Part shown: positions 39,147-51,206 of the stretch, in pieces | Position numbering within the stretch: position 1 is the stretch's first letter | Layout: every line of letters begins with the position of its first letter | From: Methylobacterium sp. J-088 | GTDB lineage: Bacteria > Pseudomonadota > Alphaproteobacteria > Rhizobiales > Beijerinckiaceae | DNA length: 64,000 nucleotides | NCBI RefSeq assembly: GCF_022829295.1 | Contig: NZ_JAKSYH010000136.1 | Coordinates: 62,001-126,000 of the forward strand | Direction of reading: 5' to 3' | Notes under the pieces: model-generated | The model's input: only the letters and a program-made list of their open reading frames with translations | Databases searched by the model: none | Told to the model about the DNA's origin: nothing | Made by a program: the position numbers and the translations under genes

Positions 39147-42100
39147 ATGTCACAGCGCAGGCCCGTCGACGCGTTTGCCGCTTCCGCGCTCCAGGCTGCC
39201 GCCCCGCGCGGTGGCACGATGCCGCTCATCGTGCGCGATCCCGCGCTGCCGAAAGCCCAGGGCGCCTACGATCCGGCCAACGAGCGCGACGCCTGCGGCG
39301 TCGGCTTCATCGCCGACATGCACGATCGCCGGACCCACGCGATCGTCCAGCAGGGTCTGAACATCCTCGAGAACCTCGATCACCGGGGTGCTGTCGGTGC
39401 CGATCCGAAGATGGGCGACGGTTGCGGCATCCTCACGCAGATCCCGCACGGCTTCTTTTCCGAGGAATGCTCGCGCCTCGGCTTCGAGCTGCCGCCGGCC
39501 GGCGCCTACGCGATCGGCCAGTTCTTCATGCCCAAGGCCGAGGAGCCGCGGGCGATCATTCAGGAGATCGTCGAATCGGTCCTCGCGTCCGAAGGCCTGC
39601 CGCTGCTCGGCTGGCGCGACGTGCCGGTCGATTCGGAGGATCTCGGCGTCGCCGTGAAGGCCACCGAGCCCCACCACCGTCAGGCCTTCATCGGCCGGCC
39701 CGCATCGGTGACCGATCAGGACGCGTTCGAGCGCAGGGTCTACGTCGCGCGTAAGGGGATCTCCAACAGGGTCTACGCCCTCGACGATCCGCGGGTGAAG
39801 GAGTTCTACCCGGTCTCGGTCTCGACCCGGACCATCGTCTACAAGGGCATGGTGCTAGTCACGCAGCTCGGCGGCTACTTCCTTGACCTGAAGGACGAGC
39901 GCTTCGTCTCGGCGATCGCGCTCGTGCACCAGCGCTTCGCCACCAACACCTTCCCGACCTGGCGGCTGTCGCACCCCTACCGGATGGTTGCCCATAACGG
40001 CGAGATCAACACCCTGCGCGGCAACGTCAACTGGATGGCGGCCCGTCAGGCGAGCGTCGATTCCGACCTGTTCGGCAACGACATCTCGAAGCTCTGGCCG
40101 ATCTCGTACGAGGGTCAGTCCGACACCGCCTGCTTCGACAATGCCCTCGAGTTCCTCGTGCAGGGCGGCTACCCGCTCGCCCACGCGATGATGATGCTGA
40201 TCCCGGAGGCGTGGGCCGGCAATCCTCTGATGAGCGAGGAGCGGCGCGCCTTCTACGAATACCACGCCGCCCTGATGGAGCCGTGGGACGGCCCGGCCGC
40301 CGTGGCGTTCACCGACGGGCGTCAGATCGGCGCGACGCTGGACCGCAACGGCCTGCGCCCGGCTCGCTACATCGTCACCGACGACGGGCTGGTGGTGCTC
40401 GCATCCGAAATGGGCACCCTGCCGATACCGGACGAGAGGATCGTGCAGTCCTGGCGCCTTCAGCCGGGCCGGATGCTGCTGATCGACCTCCAGAAGGGCC
40501 GCATCGTCTCCGACGAAGAGATCAAGGGCGAGCTCGCCGCCGCACACCCCTATGCCGAATGGGTGAAGAACACCCAGATCGTTCTGGAGGATTTGCGCCC
40601 GGTGCAGCCCCGCGAGTCGCGCGGCGACGTGAACCTGCTCGATCGCCAGCAGGCCTTCGGCTACACCCAGGAAGACCTCAAGCTGCTGATGCAGCCCATG
40701 GCCGTCACAGGCCAGGAGGCGGTCGGTTCCATGGGCACGGATACGCCGCTCTCGGCGCTCTCCGAGAAGTCCAAGCTGCTCTACACCTATTTCAAGCAGA
40801 ACTTCGCGCAGGTGACGAACCCGCCGATCGATCCGATCCGCGAGGAGGCCGTGATGAGCCTCGTCTCGTTCATCGGGCCGCGGCCGAACCTGCTCGACAT
40901 GGAGGGCGCGTCCCGGCGCAAGCGCCTGGAGGTCCGCCAGCCGATCCTGACCAACGGCGACCTGGAGAAGATCCGCTCGATCGGTCATTTCGAGGACCGG
41001 TTCGACACCAAGACCCTGGACGTGACCTACCCGGCCGAAATGGGCGCGCAGGCCATGGACGGTGCCCTCGACCGGCTCTGCGACCGGGCCGAGGCGGCGG
41101 TACGCGGCGGCTACAACATCATCGTGCTCACCGACCGGGCGGTCGGACCGGACCGGATTCCGATACCGGCGCTGCTGGCTACCGCGTCCGTGCACAACTA
41201 CCTGATCCGCAAGGGCCTGCGGACCTCGGTCGGCCTCGTGGTCGAATCGGGCGAGCCGCGCGAAGTGCATCACTTCGCGTGCCTGGCGGGCTACGGTGCC
41301 GAGGCGATCAACCCGTACCTCGCCTTCGAGACGCTGCTCGACATGAAGGACGAGTTCCCCCCGGATCTCTCCGACGACGAGATCATCTATCGCTACATCA
41401 AGGCGATCGATAAGGGCCTTTTGAAAGTGATGTCCAAGATGGGCATCTCGACCTATCAATCCTATTGCGGCGCGCAGATCTTCGACGCGATCGGCCTGAA
41501 CTCGACTTTCGTGGGCCGGGACTTCTTCGGCACGGCGACGACCATCGAGGGCGTCGGCATGGCCGAGGTGGCCGAGGAAACGGTCCGCCGTCACCGCGAT
41601 GCCTTCGGTGACGCGCCCGTCTACCGCAACGCTCTGGATGTCGGTGGCGAGTACGCTTACCGCCTGCGCGGCGAGGCCCACACCTGGACGCCCGACACGG
41701 TGGCCACGCTGCAGCACGCGGTGCGCCTCAACGTGCCGGAGCGCTACCGGGAATACGCGCAACTGGTGAACCGGCAGGAGAACCAGCTCAAGACTCTGCG
41801 TGGGCTGTTCCGCCTCAAGTCGGCCTCCGAGATCGGTCGCGAGCCGGTCCCGCTCGAATCAGTCGAACCGGCCTCCGAGATCGTGAAGCGCTTCGCCACC
41901 GGCGCCATGTCGTACGGCTCTATATCCAAGGAGGCGCACGAGACGCTGGCTATCGCGCTGAACTCCTTCGGCGGTCGCTCGAATTCGGGTGAGGGCGGCG
42001 AGGAGGTCGAGCGGTTCAAGCCGCTGCCCGACGGGCGCTCGCGCCGGTCGGCGATCAAGCAGGTGGCCTCCGGCCGGTTCGGCGTCACGACGGAATACCT

Positions 42101-43862
42101 CGTTAATTCCGACATGATGCAGATCAAGGTCGCGCAGGGGGCAAAGCCCGGCGAGGGCGGTCAGCTGCCCGGCCACAAGGTCGACGCCAAGATCGCCAAG
42201 GTCCGCTACGCCACCCCGGGCGTCGGCCTGATCTCGCCGCCGCCGCACCACGACATCTACTCGATCGAAGATCTGGCTCAGCTGATCTTCGACCTGAAGA
42301 ACGTGAATCCGTCGGCGGACGTGTCGGTGAAGCTCGTCTCCGAGGTCGGCGTCGGCACCGTCGCGGCCGGCGTCGCCAAGGCGCGGGCCGACCACATCAC
42401 GATCTCAGGGTACGACGGCGGCACCGGCGCGGCACCGCTGACCTCGCTCAAGCACGCCGGCGGTCCGTGGGAGACTGGGCTCGCGGAGACCCAGCAGACG
42501 CTGGTGCTCAACGGTCTGCGCGGGCGCGTCGCCCTCCAGGCCGATGGCGGTATCCGTACCGGGCGGGATGTGATCATCGCGGCGCTGCTCGGCGCCGACC
42601 AGATGGGCTTCTCGACTGCGCCGCTGATCGCGGCCGGCTGCATCATGATGCGCAAGTGCCACCTGAACACCTGCCCGGTCGGCGTCGCGACCCAGGATCC
42701 GGTGCTGCGCAAGCGCTTCAAGGGCACGCCCGAGCACGTGGTCAACTACTTCTTCTTCGTGGCGGAGGAGGTGCGGGAGATCCTGGCGTCGCTCGGCTTT
42801 ACGAAGCTGGAGGAGGCGGTCGGCCGCTCCGACCTGCTCGACAAGGTCGAGGCCATCGCCCACTGGAAAGCGCGCGGGCTGAACTTCACCAAGCTGTTCC
42901 ACCGGCCGAAGGTCGCCGAGGGCACGGCGATCCGCCACGTCGAGCGGCAGTATCACCCGGTCGACACCGTCCTTGACCGGCGCCTGATCGAAGGGGCCCA
43001 GCACGCCATCGAGACCGGCGAGCCGGTGGTCGTCACCGACACGATCCGCAACTCGGACCGGGCCGCGGGGGCGATGCTGTCCGGCATGGTGGCCAAGGCG
43101 CACGGCCACGAGGGCCTGCCGGACGACACCATCGTGGTGAAGCTCACCGGCACCGCCGGCCAGAGCTTCGGCGCCTGGGTGGCTGCCGGCGTGACCATCG
43201 AGCTGACCGGCCACGGCAACGATTATGTCGGCAAGGGTCTGTCGGGCGGCAAGCTGATCATCCGACCGAGCGACGCGCTTCGCTCGCCTGCTGACCGGAC
43301 CATCATGGTCGGTAACACCGTGCTGTACGGGGCTGTCGCGGGCGAGTGCTACATCCGTGGCTCGGCGGGCGAGCGCTTCGCAGTGCGCAACTCCGGCGCG
43401 ATCACGGTGGTCGAGGGCATGGGCGACCATGGCTGCGAATACATGACCGGCGGCGTGGTCGTGTCGATCGGTGAGACCGGGCGCAACTTCGCGGCCGGCA
43501 TGTCGGGCGGCATCGCCTACGTGCTCGACGAGGACGGCTCGTTCTCGGCGCGCTGCAACCTGTCCATGGTCGATCTGGAACCCGTCGAGGAGGAGGACGA
43601 CCTGATGCGCCGCTTCCACCAGGACGGCGACCTGGAGACCAAGGGGCGGGTCGATATCCTGGCTGACATGTCGGGCCATGACGAGGAGCGGCTGACGCAG
43701 CTCATCAAGAACCACCTTAAATACACGGGCAGCCCGCGCGCCAAGGCGATCCTGGACGACTGGTCGAGCTATCGCACCAGGTTCGTGAAGGTGATGCCTG
43801 TGGAGTATCGCCGGGCCCTGCGCGAAATGGAGATGGCGCGGATGCCGGTGGCGGCGGAGTAG
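39147..43862 (+). CDS. gltB: glutamate synthase (NADPH) large subunit
   Basis: Converts glutamine plus 2-oxoglutarate to two glutamates. It is 1571 aa, with a propeptide of about 49 residues before the N-terminal nucleophile C50 ([15 protein letters not shown]). The type-II glutaminase domain is followed by the central domain, the FMN-binding synthase domain and the beta-helical C-terminal domain. The 3Fe-4S cluster cysteines lie in [18 protein letters not shown] (CX5CX4C). [19 protein letters not shown] and [11 protein letters not shown] line the FMN domain. gltD follows 630 bases later, but a toxin-antitoxin pair lies between. Confidence 0.97.
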
Positions 43863-43885
43863 GGGGCGCGAACTTTCGGGCTTTC

Positions 43886-44125
43886 GTGCGCATCACGTAC
43901 AATACCGAGAAGCGCGCTCGCACACTTCGCGAGCGCGGTCTTGATTTCGAGCGGTGCGCCGAGATCTTCGATGGAACGGAGGTGACCGGCCAAGATACGC
44001 GGGGCGACTATGGTGAGACCCGTTGGATAACAGTCGGTTATCTCGATGACCGCCTCGTCGTGACGGTTTGGACGGAGCGGGCCGGCGATCGGCGGATCAT
44101 CAGCTTGAGGAAAGCCAATGAGTGA
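43886..44125 (+). CDS. brnT: BrnT-family ribonuclease toxin
   Basis: A 79 aa protein with the BrnT fold (RelE-like toxin that cuts mRNA). KRARTLRERGLDFERCAEIF corresponds to the 'K...NLxKHGVSFEEA...F' motif, ETRWITVGYLDDRLVVTVWT to the central strands, and RRIISLRKAN to the C-terminal 'RIISARxA' catalytic segment. It starts 23 bases after the gltB stop and overlaps brnA by 8 bases. The C-terminus is short but appears complete. Confidence 0.85.
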   Translation: MRITYNTEKRARTLRERGLDFERCAEIFDGTEVTGQDTRGDYGETRWITVGYLDDRLVVTVWTERAGDRRIISLRKANE

Positions 44126-44408
44126 GAGCAAGCGCGATACGGCGCACGATTCGGGTCGGCCCAGCTCCCCCGATGAGATCGGCTGGGATCCGGACGACGC
44201 TCCCGAGTTGGACGAGCGCTGGTTCTCCGAAGCGGATGTCCGTTCCGGTGGAACGCTCATCCATCGCGGGCGACGGGCGGGTGAAACCGAAACCGTTGTT
44301 CTTCCGACTGCACTGGTCGAGTCGTTTCGCGTTCAGGGGGCCGATTGGCAGATCCGGATCGAAGCAGCTCTGCAGCAATGGCTAACCGAACATCCGGAAC
44401 GGATGTGA
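44118..44408 (+). CDS. brnA: BrnA-family antitoxin
   Basis: A 96 aa antitoxin. The N-terminal part is acidic (SSPDEIGWDPDDAPELDERW). The C-terminal ribbon-helix-helix part reads ETVVLPTALVESFRVQGADW then QIRIEAALQQWL, matching the BrnA pattern 'VxLRLDxDVLxWFKxxGxGYQTRINxVLR'. BrnA normally neutralises BrnT and represses its own operon. It is coupled to brnT by an 8-base overlap, and gltD begins 82 bases downstream. Confidence 0.85.
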   Translation: MSESKRDTAHDSGRPSSPDEIGWDPDDAPELDERWFSEADVRSGGTLIHRGRRAGETETVVLPTALVESFRVQGADWQIRIEAALQQWLTEHPERM

Positions 44409-44490
44409 GTGGTCTCTAGGCGAGCGGATGTCCCACTCGTCTTGATGGTGACTGGTCCCGTCGCGACAGGGGCATAAAGAGACGAGCACG

Positions 44491-45924
44491 ATGGGCAAGA
44501 TCACAGGCTTCCTCGAATTCGACCGGCAGGAGCAGAAGTATCAGCTCGCCGCCGACCGGGTCCGGCATTTCCGTGAGTTCACGCTGCCGCTCGACGAGCA
44601 CGACCTGACCAAGCAGGCCGCGCGCTGCATGGATTGCGGCATCCCGTTCTGCCACGGGCCGACCGGCTGCCCGGTCCACAACCAGATTCCGGACTGGAAC
44701 GACCTCGTGTTCCAGTCGGATTGGGAGGAGGCCTCGCGCAACCTGCACTCCACCAACAATTTCCCGGAATTCACCGGCCGCGTCTGCCCCGCGCCCTGCG
44801 AGGAGGCCTGCACGCTGAACCTCGAGAACCAGCCGGTCGCCATCAAGACGATCGAGCAGGCGATCGCCGACCGGGCCTGGAACATGGGCTGGGTGAAGCC
44901 CGAGCCGGCGCAGATCCGCAGCGGCAAGCGCGTGGCGGTGGTGGGCTCGGGCCCGGCCGGCATGGCGGCGGCGCAGCAGCTCGCCCGGGTCGGGCACGAC
45001 GTCCACGTGTTCGAGCGCGAGCCGAAGGCCGGCGGCTTGCTCCGCTACGGGATCCCGGACTTCAAGATGGAGAAGCGCCACATCGACCGGCGCGTGCGCC
45101 AGATGGAGGCCGAAGGCGTCGTCTTCCACTACAACCAGAACATCGGCGTGACGAAGCCGGTGGACGAGTTGAAGGCCGAGTTCGATGCCGTGATGTTCTG
45201 CGGTGGTGCCGAGGATCCGCGCAATCCGCAGCTGCCCGGCCAGGAGCTGGAGGGCGTGCACTACGCGATGCCCTTCCTCGTCCAGTCCAATCGGCGGGTG
45301 AACAACGAGCCGATGCGCGGCAACGGCGAGCAGCCGATCTTGGCCAGCGGCAAGAACGTGGTGGTGATCGGCGGCGGCGACACGGCCTCCGACTGCGTCG
45401 GCACGGCGTTCCGCCAGGGCGCCCTCTCGGTCACCCAGCTCGACATCCGCCCGCGGCCACCCGAGCGCGAGGACAAGCTGACCGTGTGGCCCTACTGGCC
45501 GACCAAGATGCGCACCTCCTCCAGCCAGGCCGAGGGCGCGGAGCGCGAGTTCCAGGCGGCGACGCTCCGGCTCGAAGGCAACAAGAAGGGCCGGCTCACG
45601 GGCGTCGTGTGCGCACGGGTCGATGCCAAGCGCCAGCCGATCGAAGGCTCGGAATTCGTTCTGCCGGCCGACCTCGTCTTCATGGCGATCGGCTTTGCGG
45701 GCTCGGTCCAGAAGGGACTGCTGGAGCAGTCCGGCATCGGTGTCGACAAGCGCGGCAACGTCGAGGCGAACGAGGAGGATTATCGTACCTCCGACGCGAA
45801 GATCTGGGCGGCCGGCGACATGCGCCGGGGTCAGTCGCTCGTGGTCTGGGCGATCCGTGAGGGTCGACAGGCGGCCCGCGCCATTGACGAGATGCTGATG
45901 GGCTCGAGCGTTCTGCCACGATAG
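44491..45924 (+). CDS. gltD: glutamate synthase (NADPH) small subunit
   Basis: FAD protein that passes electrons from NADPH to GltB. It is 477 aa. The N-terminal Fe-S domain has [18 protein letters not shown] and [16 protein letters not shown] binding uses [20 protein letters not shown] and the NADPH site [18 protein letters not shown]. The end ([19 protein letters not shown]) is typical. The ATG at 44491 follows a purine-rich site. Normally adjacent to gltB, it is here separated by brnTA, so it may depend on read-through or on the brn promoter. Confidence 0.97.
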
Positions 45925-51051: not shown

Positions 51052-51156
51052 TATTTTGTGCGTTGCGAGATCGCGATGGCGTCGCGGTCTCGCAGCCCTT
51101 CTTGGGCGTTTCCTCCCTAGACTTCGGGCCGCTCCTTCGGGAGTGGCCTTTTTTGT
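51052..51156 (+). ncRNA. candidate alpha-r8 (MmgR/suhB-type) small RNA
   Basis: The 5' hairpin pairs TGCGAGA (51064-51070) with TCTCGCA (51088-51094), with an inner GCGA/TCGC stem. A single-stranded stretch containing TTTCCTCCCT (51109-51118) follows. A perfect Rho-independent hairpin with a T-run ends it. That order and the UUUCCUCCCU motif match, from memory, the Hfq-linked alpha-r8 sRNAs of Alphaproteobacteria. The CCUCC core would suit base-pairing with ribosome sites. The 5' end is estimated. It could instead be the 3' UTR of galU. Confidence 0.6.
51127..51154 (+). terminator. Rho-independent terminator of the candidate sRNA
   Basis: GGCCGCTCC and GGAGTGGCC pair over 9 bp (one G-T pair) around a TTCG tetraloop and run into six Ts. 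It would also stop any galU read-through before the oppositely oriented gene at 51207. Confidence 0.9.
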
Positions 51157-51206
51157 TTACCGCTGGCCGTCGTGCTGATGGATCCTCGCACTGCCGAGGG
51201 AGCGCG

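Follow-up and report, generated by a model that had tools for sequence, protein, structure and literature searches.

The gap between gltB and gltD, the genes for the large and small subunits of glutamate synthase, is a polymorphic cassette slot in the genus Methylobacterium, and in Methylobacterium sp. J-088 (source genome G000, a 6.4-Mb draft) it holds a BrnTA toxin-antitoxin (TA) pair. The explanation that we favour, with somewhat better than even confidence, is that the pair is an old brnTA allele of this slot, captured by the operon, transcribed with gltB, free of self-repression, exchanged as part of a block, and now carrying a weakened toxin. Under this explanation, brnTA would be transcribed by read-through from gltB, and base pairing between the leader and brnT would partly hide the brnT start, leaving brnT to be translated mainly in company with gltB. 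BrnA would still neutralise the toxin, its DNA-binding self-repression having been lost, and each allele, whether BrnTA, VapBC, GST or empty, would be replaced or lost together with its entire intergenic block, most simply through recombination in the conserved parts of gltB and gltD on either side. The features concerned, all on the same strand of the window (the whole stretch of 64,000 nucleotides that was analysed), are as follows.

39147-43862, + strand: gltB, glutamate synthase large subunit, the slot's upstream border (Pfam GATase_2, Glu_syn_central, Glu_synthase, GXGXG)
43863-43885, + strand: leader of 23 nt from the gltB stop to the brnT start, predicted to pair with the first brnT codons and without a promoter consensus
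43886-44125, + strand: brnT toxin ORF, 79 aa, GTG start (PF04365, E 5e-21; orthologue comparison)
44118-44408, + strand: brnA antitoxin ORF, 96 aa (PF14384; strand comparison; structure model)
44409-44490, + strand: tail of 82 nt before gltD, peculiar to BrnTA-alone alleles (sequence matches of the 85-nt tail)
44491-45924, + strand: gltD, glutamate synthase small subunit, the slot's downstream border (Pfam Fer4_20, Pyr_redox_2)

The ORF coordinates bear out what a prior reading of this DNA, made from the sequence only, had described: brnT and brnA lie between gltB and gltD on one strand, with 23 nt from the gltB stop to the brnT start and 82 nt from the brnA end to gltD, and they overlap by 8 nt. 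The BrnT match stood well above its Pfam cut-off (75.2 bits vs 34.5), the BrnA match was marginal (26.8 bits vs 26.1), and NCBIfam at E 0.01 gave no name for either protein. Both families were matched, in the expected gene order, and orthologues lie in the same gap of nine other genomes, so the identification is not a matter of chance. The source genome has seven BrnT matches above the cut-off, the window's included. Elsewhere in the window, at 51088-51163, an mmgR/suhB-type small RNA was matched with 70.6 bits.

The C-terminal part of gltB was found in 111 of 111 genomes of the genus and gltD in 110 of 111 (E 1e-120), and the gap was measured in 109 of them (108 and the window), G014 and G015 being left out as their genes were not joinable on one contig. 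BrnTA occupied ten of these gaps, VapBC 21 and a glutathione S-transferase-type (GST) gene alone 20; five held other genes or remnants (G045, G059, G116, G036, G117), and 53 were short. BrnTA was the sole occupant in G000, G096, G032, G016 and G098, was accompanied by GST in G023, G012, G097 and G120, and by a VapB remnant in G089. An intact GST gene was present in 24 of the 109 gaps, four of them with BrnTA, and G014, outside this count, also has a GST gene behind gltB. None of the 21 VapBC alleles had BrnTA or an intact GST gene alongside. Pfam identified a PIN domain in one slot VapC and GST domains in one slot GST; neither of the two slot VapBs tested had a Pfam match, and one of them had weak NCBIfam VapB matches far below cut-off. 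The sequence-only reading had stated that gltB and gltD usually sit together and had proposed a comparison of their spacing in relatives. As gene order the statement holds; as spacing it does so less well, with a gap of at least 400 nt in 53 of 109 genomes, and the BrnTA arrangement is shared by only ten of the 109.

The propensity to take up genes is not confined to this gap. Among the 30 genomes whose ctaB is closest, no ctaD-ctaB or ctaB-ctaG gap came to 400 nt, the longest being 315 nt. The queA-tgt gap was at least 400 nt in 5 of the 29 measurable among the 30 genomes with the closest queA, its occupants being an AadA-like nucleotidyltransferase gene in four (L353, L354, L355 and L363; one Pfam-tested) and another protein in L360. 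With five gaps filled there, none by a TA pair, the glt gap is clearly not the sole gene-taking gap of the genus. The glt gap itself was at least 400 nt in 9 of the 30 genomes nearest by gltD. A TA pair was present in 31 of 109 glt gaps and none was seen in 89 control gaps (queA-tgt contents being read only where the gap exceeded 200 nt); the Fisher value of 2e-9 is a guide only, the genomes being related. Two stand-alone VapBC pairs, L368 (G032) and L371 (G023), lie 53 and 88 nt behind a gene whose product has a seemingly MetH-like C-terminus, so other core genes of the genus may likewise carry TA pairs directly behind them.

Beyond the genus, 13 gaps of at least 400 nt, from 150 genomes of the order and measured between aligned ends, were read by eye. 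Four held GST (G187, of the same family and another genus, G219, G147 and G103), one VapBC (G108), one a GIY-YIG protein (G157) and five other genes (G254, G170, G178, G130 and G150), while the G198 gap had no sense ORF of 100 aa. GST is a recurrent occupant of the gap, seen in several families of the order as well as in 24 Methylobacterium genomes. In G154 (L295), of another family, the gap holds DUF433 with DUF5615 (PIN-like), a predicted TA pair and perhaps a third kind in the slot.

How old are these residents? One branch of the BrnT tree (86/81, a little short of the tree program's star) parts the BrnTs of the glt site from 23 others of the genus, which makes one origin of BrnTA at this site likely. 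Slot states were dispersed on a gltB tree, whose 61 rows were the window and 60 of the 108 genomes, a choice that represents every class and includes 35 rows with an intact cassette; BrnTA needed nine changes for ten carriers, VapBC 15 for 16 and GST seven for 13. Despite this scatter, cassette divergence followed gltB divergence, with a Mantel r of 0.80 for VapC and 0.72 for VapB (15 rows each), 0.90 for GST (13 rows) and 0.74 for both BrnT and BrnA (10 rows each), which argues that the modules are old residents, often lost or swapped. Between G000 and G096, third-position identity was 0.81 in gltB, 0.82 in brnT and 0.77 in brnA. A clear case of discordance is G032, whose BrnT groups with those of G000 and G096 (100/98) and whose gltB groups elsewhere.

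The gap's downstream end is also allele-specific. At E 1e-3, the 85 nt that lead up to gltD in the window have matches in G096 and G032 alone, both BrnTA-alone alleles, and in none of the 53 short-gap alleles. The sister genome G037 came closest to G000 among 60 genomes in 16 of 19 gltB and gltD comparison windows (G021, G068 and G013 did so in the other three), yet it has a different short gap with a tail that matches 16 short-gap alleles; the G089 tail has its matches in six VapBC alleles and a single short-gap allele. With the window's tail common to BrnTA alleles only and a sister that carries another gap, these matches argue that whole intergenic blocks are kept or swapped and that the window brnTA is no fresh insertion. 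Most simply, the entire gap would have been exchanged or retained through recombination in the gltB and gltD flanks, though step-wise loss or direct import of cassettes may have been at work instead. A recent mobile insertion was rejected as the main story: flanking direct repeats of the BrnTA alleles do not exceed those of shuffles (6.3 vs 6.4 nt; those of VapBC, at 7.0 vs 6.4, are slightly above), and divergence is greater in the cassettes than in gltB (for brnT, a mean nucleotide distance of 0.32 vs 0.125), the VapBC pair of G044 and G021 being the only one noted as closer in cassette than in gltB. Import with long flanks into G000 was also set aside, as in no 100-codon comparison window of gltB or gltD did a BrnTA carrier come closest to G000 among the 60 genomes; short tracts would escape this analysis. 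The pair can be called inserted, as it had been, in the evolutionary sense of an old allele of a polymorphic slot, and not in that of a new arrival in an empty gap.

The pair had also been described as complete, and for the toxin this is not so. BrnT of the window ends at 79 aa, vs 89-96 aa in its nine same-site orthologues (10-17 codons shorter), its stop falling inside the brnA overlap. Missing with these codons are a nearly invariant Glu (alignment column 81) and a predicted C-terminal helix. The helix spans residues 79-91 in an AlphaFold2 model of the G096 orthologue, which is full-length and 96% identical to the window BrnT. By the alignment, then, it is a truncated member of its family, and its toxin has probably lost the C-terminal tail recently and been weakened by it; the early stop may also be a sequencing error. 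Foldseek against the PDB gave no match at E<=0.001 for the G096 model, and VIA-align then ranked 7vd7 and 3u97 first, with Z 11.2 to 7vd7_A and 9.4 to 3u97. Residues 1-76 of the 3u97 chain align with model residues 1-79, a stretch that the window still encodes; with the match stopping there, the fold core of the 79-aa BrnT may survive.

The strongest competitor to a weakened toxin in an otherwise maintained pair, and one to which we give a substantial minority share, is that the window copy is a decaying remnant, with a dead toxin, a leftover antitoxin and no function. The early stop and the vanished Glu speak for it, and we presume that this Glu shares its column with E86 of the Acidovorax toxin Aave_1720. 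In that toxin, according to one report (PMC10714953), E86A abolished RNase activity in vitro but lowered toxicity only slightly. Toxins do appear to decay at the slot, as the best same-frame VapC ORF is shorter than 120 aa in 4 of 21 VapBC alleles (G086, G029, G052 and G074). Set against a remnant are the intact brnA, its mostly synonymous divergence from G096, the retention of the part aligned to Brucella abortus 3u97, and the full span of nine of the ten slot toxins. Between G000 and G096, dN/dS was 0.023/0.294 for brnT and 0.052/0.427 for brnA, values that point to purifying selection on both genes. The differences between near neighbours (G000-G096 and G012-G120) are mostly synonymous in both, and for this reason the full-length slot copies are probably active. 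The sequence-only reading had named as its own undoing an arrangement shared by most relatives as ancient order with inactive toxin; the arrangement is indeed old and the window toxin truncated, but 99 of the 109 genomes lack it and the other nine toxins are of family length. As a separate observation, the close relatives G016 (L141) and G098 (L132) have similar brnA genes (dN 0.085) and very different brnT genes (dN 0.30), with the middle part most diverged, which looks like a partial toxin swap.

It is on BrnA that the reading of the locus rests most. In the strand that precedes its two helices, all 26 of the non-slot BrnAs compared from the genus have a basic or amide residue (R, H or Q). 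None of the ten slot BrnAs has one (V, I, S or E stands there), and these ten count as one lineage and not as ten independent cases. The window BrnA has VVLP at the strand, where other BrnAs are xRLD-like. One row, G082, was dropped from this comparison (its extracted frame did not contain the region), and 3 of the 26 others have no scored BrnT beside them. The model of the window BrnA has a two-residue strand followed by two C-terminal helices, at moderate confidence (mean pLDDT 67.6). By analogy with ribbon-helix-helix structures, the strand residue would be a DNA contact. The suggestion that BrnA repression could affect gltD consequently finds no support, the strand residue being absent from all ten slot BrnAs and no promoter being visible on which BrnA could act.

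A consensus promoter scan of 43500-44800 found none, though such scans may miss other promoter types, and the best promoter match in the leader before brnT was 6/12. In all ten slot copies brnT starts 22-34 nt after the gltB stop. TTGAC occurred at -60 to -10 of brnT in none of the ten, vs 8 of 19 other copies of the genus (Fisher 0.027), and a two-box promoter score better than shuffles at 0.05 was reached by 2 of 19 stand-alone copies and by no slot copy. The contrast is weak, because 11 of the 19 stand-alone copies themselves have no TTGAC and only two have two boxes above shuffles. Terminators were at the number expected in shuffles (1 found vs 0.9), and a terminator-like hairpin inside brnT, at 43913-43937, was rejected as chance level. 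The tie to gltB transcription, put forward in the sequence-only reading, stands as something we infer from the little room and absent consensus for a promoter, the absence of a terminator beyond chance, and the tight overlap. The opposing possibility, an autonomous and self-repressed BrnTA that merely sits in the gap with its promoter inside the gltB 3' end, we regard as improbable, though it deserves some weight. BrnTA is common elsewhere in the genus, where eight copies do have TTGAC just upstream, and BrnA and BrnTA of B. abortus bind their own promoter, as related second-hand in PMC10714953; the slot copies differ in having neither TTGAC nor the BrnA strand residue, and in a brnT start that in every case follows closely on gltB.

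The leader may contribute to the proposed dependence on gltB translation. When the 32 nt before brnT (in the window, these include the last gltB bases) were paired with the first 45 nt of brnT, the window gave an energy of -31.5 (p 0.015 vs shuffled leaders). Eight of the ten slot copies paired significantly at p<=0.05, vs 3 of 19 others, and the slot pairings amount to about four independent ones. Pairing fell short in G023 and G032; it was strongest in G016, G098 and G089, whose perfect arms of 11-17 bp lie at different places. The fold of the first 80 nt after gltB had a mean z in the 109 genomes of -2.82 for BrnTA, -2.05 for short gaps, -1.29 for GST and -0.46 for VapBC. Short gaps fold well too, so a hairpin behind gltB is not special to BrnTA, which weakens the idea of a masked start, and the hairpin may be an older feature that was reused.

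A parallel is offered by the second TA family of the slot. The full motif (R/N)SQA(V/I)R, whose residues we take to be DNA contacts, is present in 7 of 9 stand-alone VapBs (two are without it) and in none of the 21 slot VapBs, a difference that may reflect one or a few events. Its second half is kept as QTIRLP in five of the 21 (G113, G008, G034, G085 and G074), and the slot VapB of G108, in another family, keeps the whole motif. Eleven loci were drawn on for the stand-alone set; no VapB was obtained from L369 or L375, and the one at L371 was read directly off the DNA. Operator palindromes upstream of vapB were set aside as evidence, the picture being mixed: they are strong in two of eight stand-alone copies, and a 13-bp hairpin occurs in G113 and G008 of the slot alleles. 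Most likely, to judge by these signatures, BrnTA and VapBC at the slot both ride gltB transcription without self-repression.

Were that so, the slot TA pairs might act as a dead-man's switch, made only while gltB is transcribed and translated, such that loss or silencing of the operon would let the antitoxin decay and free the toxin; the pairs would then guard or parasitise the operon, and the two families would have converged on it. This is a speculation that we rate as distinctly unlikely. Less likely still is a selected regulatory link under nitrogen control, near to what the sequence-only reading had in mind, in which a drop in glutamate synthase expression would let the toxin slow growth, for although two unrelated TA families lie beside a nitrogen-assimilation gene and both seemingly depend on its transcription, the frequency of loss (53 of 109 gaps short, 20 with GST alone) argues against an important role.

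Returning to the old, operon-captured allele as the preferred explanation, the slot provides some hundred natural alleles of a single site within one genus. Two TA families, a non-TA occupant and empty gaps are all represented, so that the stages of capture, of the loss of operator binding and of toxin decay can be traced one after another. Two unrelated antitoxins there are without all or part of their DNA-binding signature, and this, if confirmed, would be a convergent loss of autoregulation. The series bears on the way in which chromosomal TA modules become established in core operons, and on the fate of their self-regulation. None of the titles and abstract openings listed by the literature searches, one of which used narrow phrases, described a TA pair between gltB and gltD, a genus-wide allele series or a parallel loss of antitoxin signatures at one site. 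TA loci between core genes are already known; new, as far as those titles and abstract openings show, are the glt site, the genus-wide series and the parallel signature loss.

Of the characterised relatives, BrnTA of B. abortus (3u97) resembles the window pair in having the toxin first and in its BrnT fold (Z 9.4, with the full-length orthologue model). The window pair differs from it in showing no stand-alone promoter, in a BrnA strand without a basic residue and in its truncated toxin, and the slot BrnTs form a lineage separate from the other BrnTs of the genus. The Salmonella toxin 7vd7 is the best match in both fold and sequence (Z 11.2, 32% identity, profile E 1.6e-16); its C-terminal ERNRY segment is absent from the window BrnT, and its location and regulation differ. 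As to the site, the nearest precedents are the plastic TA loci of Escherichia coli and Salmonella, relA-mazEF-mazG (with parDE in Salmonella), dinB-yafNO-yafP and folA-ccd-apaH, as presented in PMC7167474 and PMC7232551. There too a TA pair lies between two core genes, and the same gap is empty or otherwise filled in relatives, which is what defines a plastic intercistronic TA locus and what the Methylobacterium census found. How such chromosomal modules move and integrate is described as unelucidated in a review (PMC7167474), and this the glt slot shares with them. Unlike those loci, the glt slot recurs across many species, its cassettes co-diverge with the flanking gene, its two TA families have wholly or partly lost the DNA-binding signatures of their antitoxins, and it has in GST a third occupant.
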